Below, piece by piece: positions 14,163 to 20,361 of a stretch of DNA of 64,000 bases. The DNA comes from Hoeflea sp. BAL378 (lineage in GTDB: Bacteria; Pseudomonadota; Alphaproteobacteria; Rhizobiales; Rhizobiaceae), in contig NZ_JRJG01000044.1 in assembly GCF_000759435.1 (NCBI RefSeq), positions 1 to 64,000 on the forward strand, given 5' to 3'. The position numbers and the translations under genes were made by a program. Under the pieces are notes generated by a model. The model worked only from the letters and a program-made list of their open reading frames with translations. It was not told where the DNA came from and searched no databases. Position 1 is the first letter of the stretch; the number at the start of each line of letters is the position of its first letter.

Positions 14163-15233
14163 ATGGCGGATCCGAAGAACGGCCTCACCTATGCCCAGGC
14201 CGGCGTCGACATCGATGCCGGCAACGAGATGGTCAACCGCATCAAGCCGTTGGTGCGCTCGACCCGCCGGCCCGGCGCCGACGGCGAGATCGGCGGATTC
14301 GGCGGGCTGTTCGACCTCAAGGCCGCGGGATTCACCGATCCGGTGCTGGTGGCCGCCAATGACGGCGTCGGCACCAAGCTCAAGGTGGCGATCGAGGCGG
14401 GGATGCATGACACGGTCGGCATCGATCTGGTCGCCATGTGCGTCAACGACCTGGTGGTCCAGGGCGCCGAGCCGTTGTTCTTCCTCGATTACTTCGCCAC
14501 CGGCAAACTCGACCCCGAACAGGGTGCGGCCATCGTCGGCGGCATCGCCCAGGGCTGCCTCCAGGCCGGCTGCGCGCTGATCGGCGGGGAAACCGCCGAG
14601 ATGCCCGGCATGTACCGCGACGGCGACTACGACCTCGCCGGCTTCGCCGTGGGTGCTGCCGAACGCGGCCAGCTCCTGCCATCGGGCACGCTGTCGGAGG
14701 GCGACGTGGTGCTGGGGCTCGCCTCCTCGGGCGTCCATTCCAACGGCTATTCGCTGGTGCGCCGCGTCGTCGAGATGAGCGGCCTCGGCTATGATGCGCC
14801 CGCGCCGTTCGATCCGTCGAAGAGCCTGGGCGCGGCGCTGATGGAGCCGACTCGGATCTATGTCAAATCGCTGCTGGCCGTAATCCGCGAGACCGGCGCG
14901 ATCCAGGCACTGGCGCACATCACCGGCGGCGGATTCCCCGAAAACCTGCCGCGCGTGCTGCCCGCTCACCTTGCCGCCGAGATCGAGCTCGACTCCATTT
15001 CCGTACCGAAGGTGTTTTCCTGGATCGCCGGCACCGGCGGGGTGGCGGCCCAGGAAATGCTGCGCACCTTCAACTGCGGCGTCGGCATGATCGCAGTGGT
15101 CAAGGCCGACGAGGCCGACCGGGTGGCGGACGCGCTTGAGGCCCAGGGCGAGAGCGTGATCCGACTCGGGCGGCTGGCCGCGCGCGGCGAAGGCCAGGCG
15201 GGCGTGTCCTACAAGGGGACACTGGCGCTGTGA
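14163..15233 (+). CDS. purM: phosphoribosylformylglycinamidine cyclo-ligase
   Basis: A 356-residue AIR synthetase that converts FGAM to AIR with ATP in step five of purine synthesis. Visible motifs are [15 protein letters not shown] near the start, [12 protein letters not shown], the [23 protein letters not shown] block, and [11 protein letters not shown]. Length is normal. GGAAGGGAAG upstream of the ATG is a good ribosome-binding site. The stop overlaps the purN GTG start by 4 bp, so the two are translationally coupled; purM and purN adjacency is conserved in rhizobia. Confidence 0.97.
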
Positions 15234-15865
15234 GCGCCGCCGAAAGGGTGCCGGTCGCGGTGCTGATCTCCGGGCGCGGATCGAACATGGGCGCGCTGGT
15301 CGCGGCCTCGCAGGAGCCGGATTTTCCCGCCCGCATCGTCTGCGTGATTTCCGACAAGGCCGACGCCGCGGGACTCGCGCACGCCCGCGAACAGGGGATC
15401 GAGGCGGTGGCGGTCCCCCGCCGCGATTATCCTTCCAAGGCCGAGCACGAGGCGGCGGTGATCGCGACGATCGAGGCGTCCGGCGCCAGGATCATCGCGC
15501 TGGCGGGCTACATGCGGCTGCTCTCGGCAGATTTCGTCCGGCGCTATGCGGGCCGGATGATCAACATCCATCCCTCGCTGCTGCCCGCGTTTCCCGGTCT
15601 CGCCACCCATGAGCGGGCGCTGGCCGCCGGATGCCGGGTGCATGGCTGCACCGTCCATTTCGTCACCGAGGGCATGGACGAGGGTCCGATCATCGAGCAG
15701 GAGGCGATACGTGTCGTCCCGGACGACACGGCCGACACGCTCGCCGCCCGCGTGCTCGCGGCCGAGCACCGGATCTATCCCCGGGCGCTCGCCATGCTGG
15801 CGCGCGGCGAGGTCCGCATGGGCAGCGGCGGGCGCACCGTGCACAAGGTCCCGTCCGGCGATTGA
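15230..15865 (+). CDS. purN: phosphoribosylglycinamide formyltransferase
   Basis: A 211-residue GAR transformylase using 10-formyl-tetrahydrofolate in step three of purine synthesis. Key parts are the phosphate loop LISGRGSNM near residue 14, the catalytic region [13 protein letters not shown] (Asn and His), and [16 protein letters not shown] containing the catalytic Asp. It starts at GTG, overlapping purM by 4 bp (GTGA). The length and domain order are those of standard PurN. Confidence 0.97.
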
Positions 15866-16141: not shown

Positions 16142-16414
16142 ATGTCGCATTTCTCGTCCAAGCCTCCATCCGAAGCAAAACCTGCCCCGACCGGCTTTTT
16201 CCGCGGCGGCCTGATGCCCGCGGCGCCGCTCGACCATGCGTCGCTGATCGTTTTCGACATCCGTTCGCTCAAGCTCAGCGTCGCCGAAGGCCGCGAGATC
16301 GAGGGCGAACTGCGCGAGGCGCTGTTCAAGATGCTGGCCTCGCGCAAGAAGGGGCGCGCCGACCTCAGCGCCGCCGATATCGGCGGTACGGTCCTGGGCA
16401 TCGCCATCGAGTGA
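16142..16414 (+). CDS. 90-residue protein of unknown family, first gene of cupin/aminotransferase unit
   Basis: The protein has a flexible Ser/Pro/Lys-rich N-terminus (about residues 1-25), then a mixed hydrophobic-amphipathic region with a likely helix around GREIEGELREALFKMLAS, and ends LGIAIE. It contains no Cys, Asn, Gln, Tyr or Trp. It has no signal peptide or membrane span. AGGAG at 16131-16135, six bases before the ATG, is an excellent ribosome-binding site and argues that the gene is real. I do not recognise it. Its position before an oxygenase and a PLP enzyme allows a role as substrate peptide or accessory protein, but that is inference. Confidence 0.7.
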   Translation: MSHFSSKPPSEAKPAPTGFFRGGLMPAAPLDHASLIVFDIRSLKLSVAEGREIEGELREALFKMLASRKKGRADLSAADIGGTVLGIAIE

Positions 16415-16642
16415 CCCGGTGACCGGGCGTTGGTGCGGCGACCGGATGCGCGCACCCTGGGAACGGCCCCCGTCCCGGCGAGGCCTCGACCGGGGAGCAC
16501 GCCCGGTCTTCCGGACCGGTGCGTCGGACCTGACGCATCGCGCCGCTCTGGCCCCGCCCCGCAGCCCCTGCCCGACCGCGTGCCTCCGGCCTTGCCGGGC
16601 CAAGCATGCCGTGTCTGAAACCATCCTTCTGGAGGGATCGCC

Positions 16643-17644
16643 ATGAGCGAAGCCGCCGTCAAGCAGCCGTCCGACGACTGGACCGAATGGGCGGCGCACA
16701 ACCTGGCGATGGGCGTAGCCGCAGCCGACATCGCCGCCGAACTCGGCAAGGCCGGCCTGTCCGCGCCGGAGGCGCAGCGCCTGATTGCCGGCATCGAAAG
16801 CAGCCCGGTGTTCCGCGCGGCGCGGCGGCTGGGCGGCGAGGTGCGCAAATGGACCGTGCTCACGGACACGCTGCTGGCGCTCGAGGGCCTGACCCATGAC
16901 TACGACCGCGTGCCGCGCGTGTCGGGCCTGTCGTCCGAGGCGTTCCTGCGCGAGTACTACGCGCTCAACCGGCCGGTGATCCTCGAGGACGTGGTGGACG
17001 CTTGGCCCGCCCTGGGAAAATGGGACCTCGACTTCCTGGCCCGGCATTTCGGCCAGTGCCCGATCACCTACCAGCACGGCCGCTCGAAGAGCGACCACCG
17101 CGATTCCTTCGTCGATCACAGCACGCGGGCGACGCTGTCGGGCTATATCGACCTGATCCGGGACGGGGCCGAGACCAATGACTATTACCTCATCGCCCAT
17201 GACAGGATCCTCGACCGGCCGGACTTCAAGCCGCTGCTCAACGACATTGTCTTCGACCCGCGCTATTTCGATCCCGTCTCCCGGCCCGGGCGGGTGTTCT
17301 TCTGGCTCGGCCCGAAGGGAACGCTGACGCCGATGCACCGGGACCTGGGCAATGTGTTCTTCGCCCAGGTGATGGGGCGCAAGCGGGTGACGCTGATCCC
17401 GTCCAAGCAAATGCACAAGGTTTACAACCAGACCGGCTATCACAGCGAGATCGACTTCGAGAAGGATGACCTGTCGGACTACCCGCTGCTCGAGGGCGCG
17501 CATATCGTCGAGGAGGTGATCGCGCCCGGCGAACTCTTGTTCATCTCGATCGGCTGGTGGCATGCGGTCAAATCGCTCGATGTCAGCATCACCGTGACCG
17601 GCAACAATTTCCGCTTCCCCAACGTGTTTTCGGAGATCTTCTAG
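16643..17644 (+). CDS. cupin_8/JmjC-type Fe(II)/2-oxoglutarate oxygenase, FIH-like
   Basis: A 333-residue protein with an approximately 90-residue helical N-terminal extension followed by a cupin-like JmjC domain. The Fe ligands are visible as H232 and D234 in TPMHRDLGN, with distal H307 in GWWHAVKSLDV. K247 in GRKRVTLIP lies 15 residues after the first His, the spacing of the 2-oxoglutarate-binding Lys in human FIH, and the NVFFAQVMGRKR stretch resembles FIH. Such enzymes hydroxylate side chains of proteins or peptides, or small molecules; the substrate here is unknown. GGAGG seven bases before ATG supports the start. The next gene begins two bases after its stop. Confidence 0.88.
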   Translation: MSEAAVKQPSDDWTEWAAHNLAMGVAAADIAAELGKAGLSAPEAQRLIAGIESSPVFRAARRLGGEVRKWTVLTDTLLALEGLTHDYDRVPRVSGLSSEAFLREYYALNRPVILEDVVDAWPALGKWDLDFLARHFGQCPITYQHGRSKSDHRDSFVDHSTRATLSGYIDLIRDGAETNDYYLIAHDRILDRPDFKPLLNDIVFDPRYFDPVSRPGRVFFWLGPKGTLTPMHRDLGNVFFAQVMGRKRVTLIPSKQMHKVYNQTGYHSEIDFEKDDLSDYPLLEGAHIVEEVIAPGELLFISIGWWHAVKSLDVSITVTGNNFRFPNVFSEIF

Positions 17645-17646
17645 AC

Positions 17647-18903
17647 TTGGCCGACAGGGTCCGTCCGGATCGGGAGGACCGGGAGCCAAAGCTCGATGTC
17701 GGCCGGTCCTCGGCCCTGCTCAAGCGCCTGCGGCAGAGCGAGGCGCTGCTCGCCGCCCGGCCGGGGATGTATTTCACCGGCTATGAGCGGATCGGCGGCA
17801 ATCCGGTGTTCATCGACCGGGCCGAGGGCGCCCGGCTGCGCGACATCGACGGCAATATCTACACCGATTACCTGCTCGGCTTCGGCTCCGTGGTGCTGGG
17901 CCATGGCCATCCGGAGGTGAACCGGGCGGTCATGGCGGCGCTCGGGCGCGGCGTCAATCCAACGCTGCTCGATGTCGCCCATCTCGATCTCGCCGAGCGC
18001 ATCGTCGGGCTGGTGCCCTCGGCCGATCTCGTCACCTTTCTCAAGACCGGGTCGGACGCCGTCGACGCCGCGGTCCGCCTCGCCCGGGCCGTGACCGGAC
18101 GGTCGCATGTGCTGCATTACGGCCATCACGGATGGCACGACTGGTGCTCCGCCTCTCCAGGCGTGCCCGACGCCGCGCGGTCGCTGCTGCACCGGTTCGC
18201 CTACAACGACCTGGACAGCGTGCGCGCCCTGTTTGACGCCCACCCGGGCGAGATCGCCTGCGTGGTGATGATGCCCTATGAGCTCGAGCCGCCGCAGCCG
18301 GGCTACCTCACGGCCATGAAGCAGCTCACGCATCAGAACCGCGCGCTGTTCATCCTCGACGAGGTGCGATCGGGGTTCCGCATCGGGCTCGGCGGGGCGC
18401 AGGGCGCATTCGGCGTCGCCCCCGACATCTCGGCCTTCGGCAAGGCGATGGCCAACGGCCATGCGATCTCGGCGCTGGCCGGGCGGCGCGAGATCATGGC
18501 GAGGATCCTCGAGCTCGGGCTGACGGTCACCTATTTCCGCTCCCCCGACGCGATGGCCGCCTCGCTCGCCACGATAGGGATCCTCGAGCGCGAGGATGTG
18601 CCGGCACGGCTGAAGAGGCTGGGCCGGCGGCTGATGGACGGCCTCGACCAGGCCGCGCTGAAAGCCCGCGTCCCGGCCCGCTCCGTGGGCCTCGAGGCGA
18701 CGCCGTTCCTCCGCTTCGAGCACGAGCGGGAGGCCGAGCGCGACCGGGCGCTGCGGCTGTTCTGCAACGGCATGCTGGCGCGCGGGCATTTGATGACGCC
18801 GGCGCATCACTGGTTCCTCTGCGCCGCCATGACCGAGGACGACATCGACCGGACCGTCCGGGCCGCCGAACGCACGCTGGCGGACATCGCAGCCGCGATC
18901 TGA
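17647..18903 (+). CDS. class III PLP aminotransferase (glutamate-1-semialdehyde aminomutase-like)
   Basis: A 419-residue fold-type I PLP enzyme of the class III group. GSDAVDAAVRLARAVTGR contains the phosphate-binding region, HHGWHDW is the family HGxHD motif, D238 in FILDEVRSGFR binds the pyridine nitrogen, and K266 in SAFGKAMANG is the expected Schiff-base lysine. The usual EPV segment reads MPYELEPP, so the active site differs from hemL. The start is taken as TTG at 17647, two bases after the oxygenase stop; the next in-frame ATG would remove about 40 residues. The substrate is unknown. It is almost certainly co-transcribed with the oxygenase. Confidence 0.85.
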   Translation: MADRVRPDREDREPKLDVGRSSALLKRLRQSEALLAARPGMYFTGYERIGGNPVFIDRAEGARLRDIDGNIYTDYLLGFGSVVLGHGHPEVNRAVMAALGRGVNPTLLDVAHLDLAERIVGLVPSADLVTFLKTGSDAVDAAVRLARAVTGRSHVLHYGHHGWHDWCSASPGVPDAARSLLHRFAYNDLDSVRALFDAHPGEIACVVMMPYELEPPQPGYLTAMKQLTHQNRALFILDEVRSGFRIGLGGAQGAFGVAPDISAFGKAMANGHAISALAGRREIMARILELGLTVTYFRSPDAMAASLATIGILEREDVPARLKRLGRRLMDGLDQAALKARVPARSVGLEATPFLRFEHEREAERDRALRLFCNGMLARGHLMTPAHHWFLCAAMTEDDIDRTVRAAERTLADIAAAI

Positions 18904-19089: not shown

Positions 19090-20361
19090 ATGCCTTCTCT
19101 CCACGGACTGCTCGACAAAGCCATCAGCAACGGCCGATTGACGGTCACCGACGCCAGGGGCCAGACCCGCGTCTACGGCGGCAAGGGACCGGGTCCGGAA
19201 GCCGCCATCCGCTTCACCACGCCGTCGGTGGCGCGCAAGATCTTCCTCAATCCCGAGCTCAAGGCGGCGGAAGCCTATATGGACGGCGAACTGGTGATGA
19301 GCGAGGGCTCGATCCACGACCTGATCCGGCTGTTCTTCGCCAACAAGCACCAGTTCGACCTCACCCCCAGCCAGATCTTCTGGCGCGGCGTCGCCCGCGG
19401 GCTCAGGCGCTTCCAGCAGAACAATGCGCTGTCGCGGGCGCGGGGCAATGTGCAGGCGCATTACGACATCGGCGAAGAGATCTACCGGCTGTTTCTCGAC
19501 GCCGACATGCAATATTCCTGCGCCTATTTTCCCGAAGGCACCGAGACGCTGGAACAGGCGCAGACGCTGAAGAAGCGTCATCTCGCCGCCAAGCTGCAAC
19601 TGGCCGACGGCCAGAGGCTGCTCGACATCGGCTGCGGATGGGGCGGGCTCGGGCTCTATCTGGCCCATCTCGCCGACATCGAGGTGGTGGGCGTGACGCT
19701 GTCGGAACGGCAGCTTGCCGTGGCCCGGCGCAGGGCCGAGATCCTCGGCGTCAGCGACCGGGTGAAATTCGAGCTGATCGACTACCGCGAGGTTGAGGGC
19801 AAGTTCGACCGCATCGTCTCGGTGGGCATGCTCGAACATGTCGGCGTGCACTATCTCACCCCCTATTTCCTCACCGTGCGCGACCGGCTCTCGCCCGACG
19901 GCGTGGCGCTGATCCATTCGATCTCGTCCAAGGCGCCGCCCGGGGTCACCGGGCCGTTCCTGCGCAAGTACATCTTCCCCGGCGGCTACGCGCCGTCGCT
20001 GTCGGAAGCGGTCTCGGCGATCGAACTGTCGGGGCTTTGGATCCTCGACTGCGAGATCTGGCGCTGCCACTACGGCCACACGCTCCGCCACTGGCGCGAC
20101 CGTTTCGACGCCAACCGGGCGCGGGCCGCCGAGGTGATGGACGAGCGCTTCTGCCGGATGTGGGAGCTGTATCTGTCGATGTGCGAATGCGCCTTCATGC
20201 AGGGCGCGAGCAACGTGTTCCAGATCCAGCTCGGCCGCGAGCGCGACGTGGTGCCGCTCACCCGCGACTACATCGCGATCGAGGAAGCCCGCATCGCCGA
20301 GCGCGAGACCCAATTCCTCGACCGCGTGGTGGCGAGCGCCAAACAGGCGCTGGAGGAATGA
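19090..20361 (+). CDS. cfa: cyclopropane-fatty-acyl-phospholipid synthase
   Basis: A 423-residue SAM-dependent enzyme that adds a methylene bridge to unsaturated acyl chains of membrane phospholipids. The SAM motif LLDIGCGWGGLGLYL starts at residue 177, preceded by VQAHYDIG and the MQYSCAYF cysteine loop (C144); FPGGYAPSL and RWRDRF-like blocks follow. Length fits the CFA family. GGAG eight bases upstream of the ATG supports the start. The gene is monocistronic, with a hairpin immediately after the stop. Confidence 0.96.
   Translation: MPSLHGLLDKAISNGRLTVTDARGQTRVYGGKGPGPEAAIRFTTPSVARKIFLNPELKAAEAYMDGELVMSEGSIHDLIRLFFANKHQFDLTPSQIFWRGVARGLRRFQQNNALSRARGNVQAHYDIGEEIYRLFLDADMQYSCAYFPEGTETLEQAQTLKKRHLAAKLQLADGQRLLDIGCGWGGLGLYLAHLADIEVVGVTLSERQLAVARRRAEILGVSDRVKFELIDYREVEGKFDRIVSVGMLEHVGVHYLTPYFLTVRDRLSPDGVALIHSISSKAPPGVTGPFLRKYIFPGGYAPSLSEAVSAIELSGLWILDCEIWRCHYGHTLRHWRDRFDANRARAAEVMDERFCRMWELYLSMCECAFMQGASNVFQIQLGRERDVVPLTRDYIAIEEARIAERETQFLDRVVASAKQALEE

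Follow-up and report, generated by a model that had tools for sequence, protein, structure and literature searches.

A three-gene unit in Hoeflea sp. BAL378 encodes a 90-residue protein, an Fe(II)/2-oxoglutarate (2OG) oxygenase and an enzyme dependent on pyridoxal 5'-phosphate (PLP). The unit lies in the first 64,000 nucleotides of contig NZ_JRJG01000044.1, the whole of which stretch is referred to here as the window. The small protein is a working part of the unit, a linkage that is now well supported. The best explanation for the trio, to which we give an even chance by analogy with known systems, is a minimal cassette for modifying a peptide or protein, of the kind that makes ribosomally synthesised and post-translationally modified peptides (RiPPs), with the small protein as its substrate. 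The unit comprises:

16142..16414, forward strand: 90-residue protein, putative precursor or substrate; residues 33-90 are conserved and 1-32 variable, and a helix is predicted with low confidence at 47-69.
16643..17644, forward strand: JmjC/Cupin_8 Fe(II)/2OG oxygenase of 333 residues, with an N-terminal helical domain (approximately residues 11-52) that has no Pfam match.
17647..18903, forward strand: class III PLP-dependent enzyme of the aminotransferase fold, 418 residues, with a TTG start and Lys266 as the PLP lysine.

The three genes are co-directional, with 228 bp between the small gene and the oxygenase gene and 2 bp between the oxygenase and PLP genes in the window. The open reading frame (ORF) of the small protein starts with ATG and has GAGAGGAGAA upstream; a GGAG- or GGGAG-type stretch precedes the start in all five small ORFs known from three loci. 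These loci are those of the window's genome (G000), of Hoeflea olei JC234 (G005, locus L010) and of an uncultured Hoeflea sp. (G015, locus L011). A GTG at 17557 lies upstream in the open PLP reading frame. Comparison nevertheless supports the start at 17647, which is kept in both orthologues: at all three loci the PLP gene begins 2 bp after the oxygenase stop codon, with TTG in the window and in H. olei and ATG in the uncultured species. Re-derived coordinates agree with the ORFs and starts of the initial annotation, including the placement of the PLP start 2 bp past the oxygenase. A scan of the 228-bp gap of the window finds neither a terminator-like site nor a sigma-70-like promoter, the promoter scan being ill-suited to a GC-rich genome.

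The width of that gap had led the initial annotation to doubt that the small gene belongs with its neighbours, and conservation beside the oxygenase in related genomes was the test proposed. An orthologous oxygenase is present in three of the 101 genomes searched (the window's own and 100 relatives), and the small protein is found in exactly these three. A fourth genome, G010, has a Cupin_8 protein that is merely 30% identical and encoded elsewhere in the genome. A profile search of 18 Hoeflea genomes recovers the small protein in the same three and in none of the other 15. Gene order and strand are constant at the three loci, and the gap before the oxygenase shrinks to 117 bp in H. olei and 99 bp in the uncultured species, so that one arrangement is kept throughout, with the window's 228 bp as its widest spacing. 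The uncultured species has three small genes in tandem immediately ahead of the oxygenase (spacing 152 and 32 bp, then the 99 bp). The doubt is thus answered: the small protein is taken as part of the unit because it stands beside an orthologous oxygenase in every oxygenase-bearing genome and is triplicated in one of them. By analogy with multi-copy RiPP precursors, it is also likely to be the substrate.

The small ORF is more than a chance reading frame, because its homologues are 67-80% identical (80, 73, 70 and 67% to the window copy) and synonymous changes exceed nonsynonymous ones. All five copies agree at 50 of 90 positions, comprising 11 of the 32 residues at 1-32 and 39 of the 58 at 33-90. 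The proportions of nonsynonymous (pN) and synonymous (pS) differences, rough figures from short segments, are 0.118 and 0.35 between the window and H. olei; among the three paralogues of the uncultured species, pN is 0.023-0.046 and pS 0.18-0.34 for residues 33-90, and pN is 0.28-0.40 and pS 0.55-0.65 for residues 1-32. The protein is under purifying selection that is strongest at residues 33-90, and its N-terminal part drifts or diversifies. In the tandem array itself (L011, 6899-7901), synonymous divergence (dS) is 0.21-0.45 for the C-terminal halves and 1.0-1.5 for the N-terminal halves. Gene conversion of one part may add to the likeness of the C-terminal halves, because their synonymous divergence is lower too.

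The predicted structure of the small protein is weak (predicted local distance difference test score, pLDDT, 54), with one main helix and low-confidence ends, so the protein is perhaps largely unfolded. It has no relative in Pfam, NCBIfam or the Protein Data Bank (PDB), which together with the weak one-helix model fits what is expected of a precursor. The initial annotation had laid stress on its composition. The window copy does lack Cys, Asn, Gln, Tyr and Trp, as described, but this is not a conserved feature, because each of the four others contains Asn, Gln or Tyr; Cys and Trp alone are missing from all five. The invariant residues include four Arg (R41, R51, R58 and R68), two Asp (D39 and D79) and three Lys (K44, K63 and K70), and the C-terminal residue is Glu in four copies and Asp in one. 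A conserved Asn, the FIH-type target, is absent from the small proteins, Asn occurring in just one of the five; FIH accepts Asp and His too. Two other roles for the protein were considered and rejected. A double-glycine export leader was dropped: the glycines at 22-23 are lost in one copy of the uncultured species and those at 81-82 are invariant, yet the genome has no C39 peptidase. A LysW-type amino-group carrier protein, considered by analogy, was dropped as well, there being no ligase in the unit.

The oxygenase belongs to the JmjC/Cupin_8 family (Pfam Cupin_8, E=1.2e-34; JmjC, E=2.6e-5) and has the HxD...H iron triad and 2OG-binding lysine of these enzymes. The residues picked out initially, H232, D234, H307 and K247, are invariant in the three orthologues and align with the corresponding His, Asp, His and Lys of JMJD5. 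The description 'FIH-like' holds as far as the JmjC family and the catalytic residues are concerned, but by sequence JMJD5 (residues 88-318) is the closest among solved structures, and the match to FIH is limited to the catalytic core at 221-321. The structural model of the oxygenase (pLDDT 40) is confident only over approximately residues 11-52. This segment (window 16673-16798) is predicted to form a three-helix N-terminal domain; a similar domain is suggested for loci L023, L024 and L054, where tblastn alignments begin at residues 9-15.

The PLP enzyme has a clear class III aminotransferase fold (Pfam Aminotran_3, E=1.4e-43; 149.6 bits against a cut-off of 30.5), and Lys266 aligns with the GK-motif lysine of glutamate-1-semialdehyde aminomutases (GSAMs). 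Its nearest families are the GSAMs (HemL, PRK06209) and the sugar C-6' aminotransferases. It cannot be assigned as a GSAM, since it falls below the NCBIfam cut-offs (281 of 486 and 243 of 398 bits). It also has 13-14 residues fewer than the GSAMs in the loop after HGHxD, which we take to be the active-site gating loop. Judged by sequence, this shortfall could admit a larger substrate, but the sugar C-6' aminotransferases, which act on small molecules, also align with the PLP enzyme without that length difference.

How might the three parts work together? In the cassette we favour, (i) the 90-residue protein, encoded by one to three gene copies, would be the substrate, with the predicted helix, and probably the site of modification, in residues 33-90, (ii) the oxygenase would hydroxylate or further oxidise an invariant side chain, with Arg, Asp or Lys as the candidates suggested by its family, (iii) the PLP enzyme would then act on the oxidised residue, for example by placing an amine on a carbonyl, and (iv) maturation and export would fall to enzymes encoded elsewhere, or the modified protein would stay inside the cell. 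The small protein is most simply the oxygenase's substrate because it is short, perhaps unfolded and triplicated before the oxygenase in one genome. The oxidise-then-aminate scheme follows from analogy with the BipG, PbsQ, daptide and methanobactin precedents. The sequences themselves show the gene order, conservation, purifying selection, triplication, enzyme families and catalytic residues; the substrate role, the target residue, the order of the steps and the amine-installing step are inferred alike. The scheme in its fullest form is unlikely: it would have the oxygenase make or set up a carbonyl on an invariant side chain, to which the PLP enzyme then adds a primary amine, giving a non-canonical residue with no dedicated RiPP recognition element (RRE), protease or transporter. 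The initial annotation had suggested that the trio may be a modification pathway, either of the small protein or of a free metabolite. The conserved and, in one genome, triplicated small gene speaks for the first version, and the stress on composition is not supported. With the small protein as substrate, the unit would be a two-enzyme peptide-modification pathway and a compact means of adding new groups to ribosomal proteins.

The genus provides a natural experiment for this unit, with three intact loci, one of them with three copies of the small gene, repeated losses and a remnant. The unit is flanked by purN and cfa in all three genomes that have it; in the window, purM and purN are on one side and cfa on the other. 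The immediate neighbours, which are context outside the unit, are:

15230..15865, forward strand: purN, the conserved upstream neighbour.
19090..20361, forward strand: cfa, cyclopropane-fatty-acid synthase, the conserved downstream neighbour.

A cfa gene is found in 17 of the 18 genomes of the genus. Among the 15 genomes without the unit, purN and cfa are 134-282 bp apart in 10 (measured from tblastn ends), and two have gaps of 591 and 678 bp with no detectable match to the unit. G010 retains a 93-residue remnant of the PLP gene (L034, 3066-3344, reverse strand), 67% identical to residues 326-418, in a purN-cfa gap of 644 bp. The contig of G006 stops 79 bp short of cfa, and in G013 no match to cfa reaches the cut-off. 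In a tree of cfa, which as a single gene is a guide only, the intact loci and the remnant are spread over three groups; two genomes whose cfa is 96 and 91% identical to that of the window's species (G014 and G004) are without the unit. Values of dS between the window's genome and, respectively, H. olei and the uncultured species are 0.42 and 0.82 for the oxygenase, 0.54 and 0.82 for the PLP enzyme, 0.49 and 0.73 for purM, and 0.51 and 0.78 for cfa. A recent horizontal island is rejected on these figures, the unit genes having diverged at synonymous sites much like purM and cfa. Because purN and cfa lie close together in genomes without the unit and a PLP-gene remnant persists, the unit is read, from sequence, as old, vertically inherited within the genus and lost several times.

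Beyond the genus the samples are not exhaustive, and the single scan of genome contigs detects close relatives only. No relative of the small protein is found by tblastn in plasmids or phages, none of 64 pattern matches in viral contigs is confirmed, and none is accepted in 397 foreign genomes of the phylum. The sole foreign match among the 398 phylum genomes (G185, E=0.0098) is, by eye, an RsmD-like methyltransferase and is attributed to chance. Of 385 genomes in the class, six foreign ones have relatives of the oxygenase (E<=1e-15), as do six foreign ones of 398 in the phylum (E<=1e-20), G449 being in both sets; these relatives are 27-41% identical. No close oxygenase is found in 371 foreign genomes of the order (E<=1e-30). 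For the PLP enzyme, 199 genomes of the family give one foreign match at E<=1e-75 (G966, 36-37% identical). Plasmids contain 39 records with a weak oxygenase match, nine of which were inspected, and 89 records with PLP-enzyme relatives; 30 of these 89 are listed as 34.7-41.5% identical, and the four inspected are all in other contexts.

Some of these relatives are worth recording in their own right. In one of the nine plasmid records, from Vibrio europaeus (L049, 434-6461), the gene for a cupin-like relative of the oxygenase is two genes from one for a PLP-dependent aminotransferase, in a row that also encodes an Ldh-type oxidoreductase, an alpha/beta hydrolase and a phosphopantetheinyl transferase. 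The cupin-like relative on Sinorhizobium meliloti pAK76 (L015, 4845-11185) adjoins another 2OG-Fe(II) oxygenase; a radical SAM protein and a flavoprotein are encoded close by. At L018 (1471-3186, reverse strand) the oxygenase relative is fused to an N-terminal DUF6065 domain recognised by Pfam, and L020 and L021 look similar by eye; these three are from other Alphaproteobacteria.

A short conserved precursor gene beside modifying enzymes, one of the marks of a RiPP locus, is present at all three loci and in three copies at one. Several observations weigh against a RiPP-like cassette, however. The conserved C-terminal and variable N-terminal parts of the small protein are the reverse of the usual leader-core order, and contiguous genes can vanish together with no functional tie between them. 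As the initial annotation remarked, and as is seen at all three loci, no transporter, protease or recognised RRE is adjacent: the flanks are purN and cfa in each case, although a neighbouring protease or transporter is not obligatory for RiPPs. No RRE is matched by Pfam in residues 1-100 of the oxygenase or beyond the catalytic domains, a search dedicated to RREs not having been made. The window's genome has no C39 peptidase by a search whose control was positive in 8 of 14; TldD/PmbA-type proteins are encoded elsewhere in the genome, which merely leaves maturation possible. BipG and PbsQ target ornithine made by way of an arginase, and none is seen here. Around the foreign oxygenases there is no tblastn match to the PLP enzyme (E<=0.01) and no accepted match to the small protein, in flanks of mostly about 1.5 kb that would miss partners farther away. 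Finally, some plasmid relatives of the oxygenase are near genes for non-ribosomal peptide synthetases (NRPSs), and their contexts lean towards small molecules.

The serious rival is therefore a free-metabolite pathway, in which both enzymes act on a small molecule (hydroxylation by the oxygenase, transamination or rearrangement by the PLP enzyme) and the 90-residue protein has an accessory role as carrier, scaffold or sensor. We hold it to be rather unlikely, and it retains that much weight because of the lack of RiPP genes beside the unit, the odd layout of the small protein, the joint loss of the genes and the small-molecule contexts. Both of the PLP enzyme's nearest families use small molecules, and the NRPS-associated plasmid relatives and the V. 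europaeus locus, with its aminotransferase, Ldh-type oxidoreductase and phosphopantetheinyl transferase, speak for such a pathway. Taken alone, though, it leaves unexplained why a constrained small protein is encoded, and in one genome triplicated, before the oxygenase, and the small protein has no carrier-like family match.

Among solved structures the oxygenase is closest to protein hydroxylases, and the small protein might be a resident regulatory target, as with JMJD5 and FIH, the PLP enzyme being separate and merely co-transcribed. The unrelated contexts of the four plasmid PLP relatives agree with such a division. It is improbable given that the 2-bp spacing of the oxygenase and PLP genes is constant in three genomes, and that the entire unit is dispensable and patchy. 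That the small gene is just an unrelated neighbour of the oxygenase-PLP pair is very improbable: it would suit the wide gap of the window, and single deletions would take out all three genes whatever their roles, but the gap is shorter in both relatives, order and strand are constant, copies have multiplied exactly there, and the genomes, plasmids and phages searched gave no homologue of the small protein outside the unit.

The RiPP-like cassette can be set beside several known systems. Each of its enzyme types has a precedent acting on ribosomal peptides; no report of a JmjC/Cupin_8 oxygenase and a class III aminotransferase working as a pair on a ribosomal precursor appears in the literature covered, which is largely non-subscription. 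Biphenomycin-type clusters (BipG/BpmG, PbsQ) resemble the unit in combining a JmjC or cupin-like oxygenase with short precursor genes. The JmjC enzyme BipG is described as gamma-hydroxylating ornithine within its precursor (PMC12707348); its cupin-like relative PbsQ adds 15.99 Da to Orn9 of the precursor with low conversion, arginase being required, and the pbs cluster has four precursors (PMC12257519). The unit differs in having no genes for a multinuclear non-haem iron-dependent oxidative enzyme (MNIO), an arginase or a B12-dependent radical SAM enzyme, and a PLP enzyme instead; the FRF core motif occurs in none of the five small proteins. The likeness to BipG and PbsQ is one of published description.

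The clusters of daptides, RiPPs whose C-terminus is aminated, likewise place a PF00202 aminotransferase and an oxidising enzyme with precursor peptides, the aminotransferase acting on the carbonyl left by oxidative decarboxylation of a C-terminal Thr (PMC10036551). In contrast, the small protein here ends in Glu or Asp, and the unit has no alcohol dehydrogenase, RRE-DUF protein or methyltransferase, its oxidising enzyme being of a different family. Methanobactin operons with MbnN likewise combine a transaminase with a ribosomal peptide, and of three MbnN transaminases one is assigned to PF00202 (PMC3621798), but the unit has neither a Cys-rich MbnA-like precursor (no Cys in five copies) nor MbnB or MbnC.

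Enzyme by enzyme, the oxygenase shares with JMJD5 and FIH the JmjC fold family, the HxD...H triad and the 2OG lysine, and departs from them in being bacterial and in its N-terminal domain. The PLP enzyme shares with the GSAMs HemL and PRK06209 the class III fold and the PLP lysine, and departs from them in the GSAM loop and in its scores against their cut-offs.

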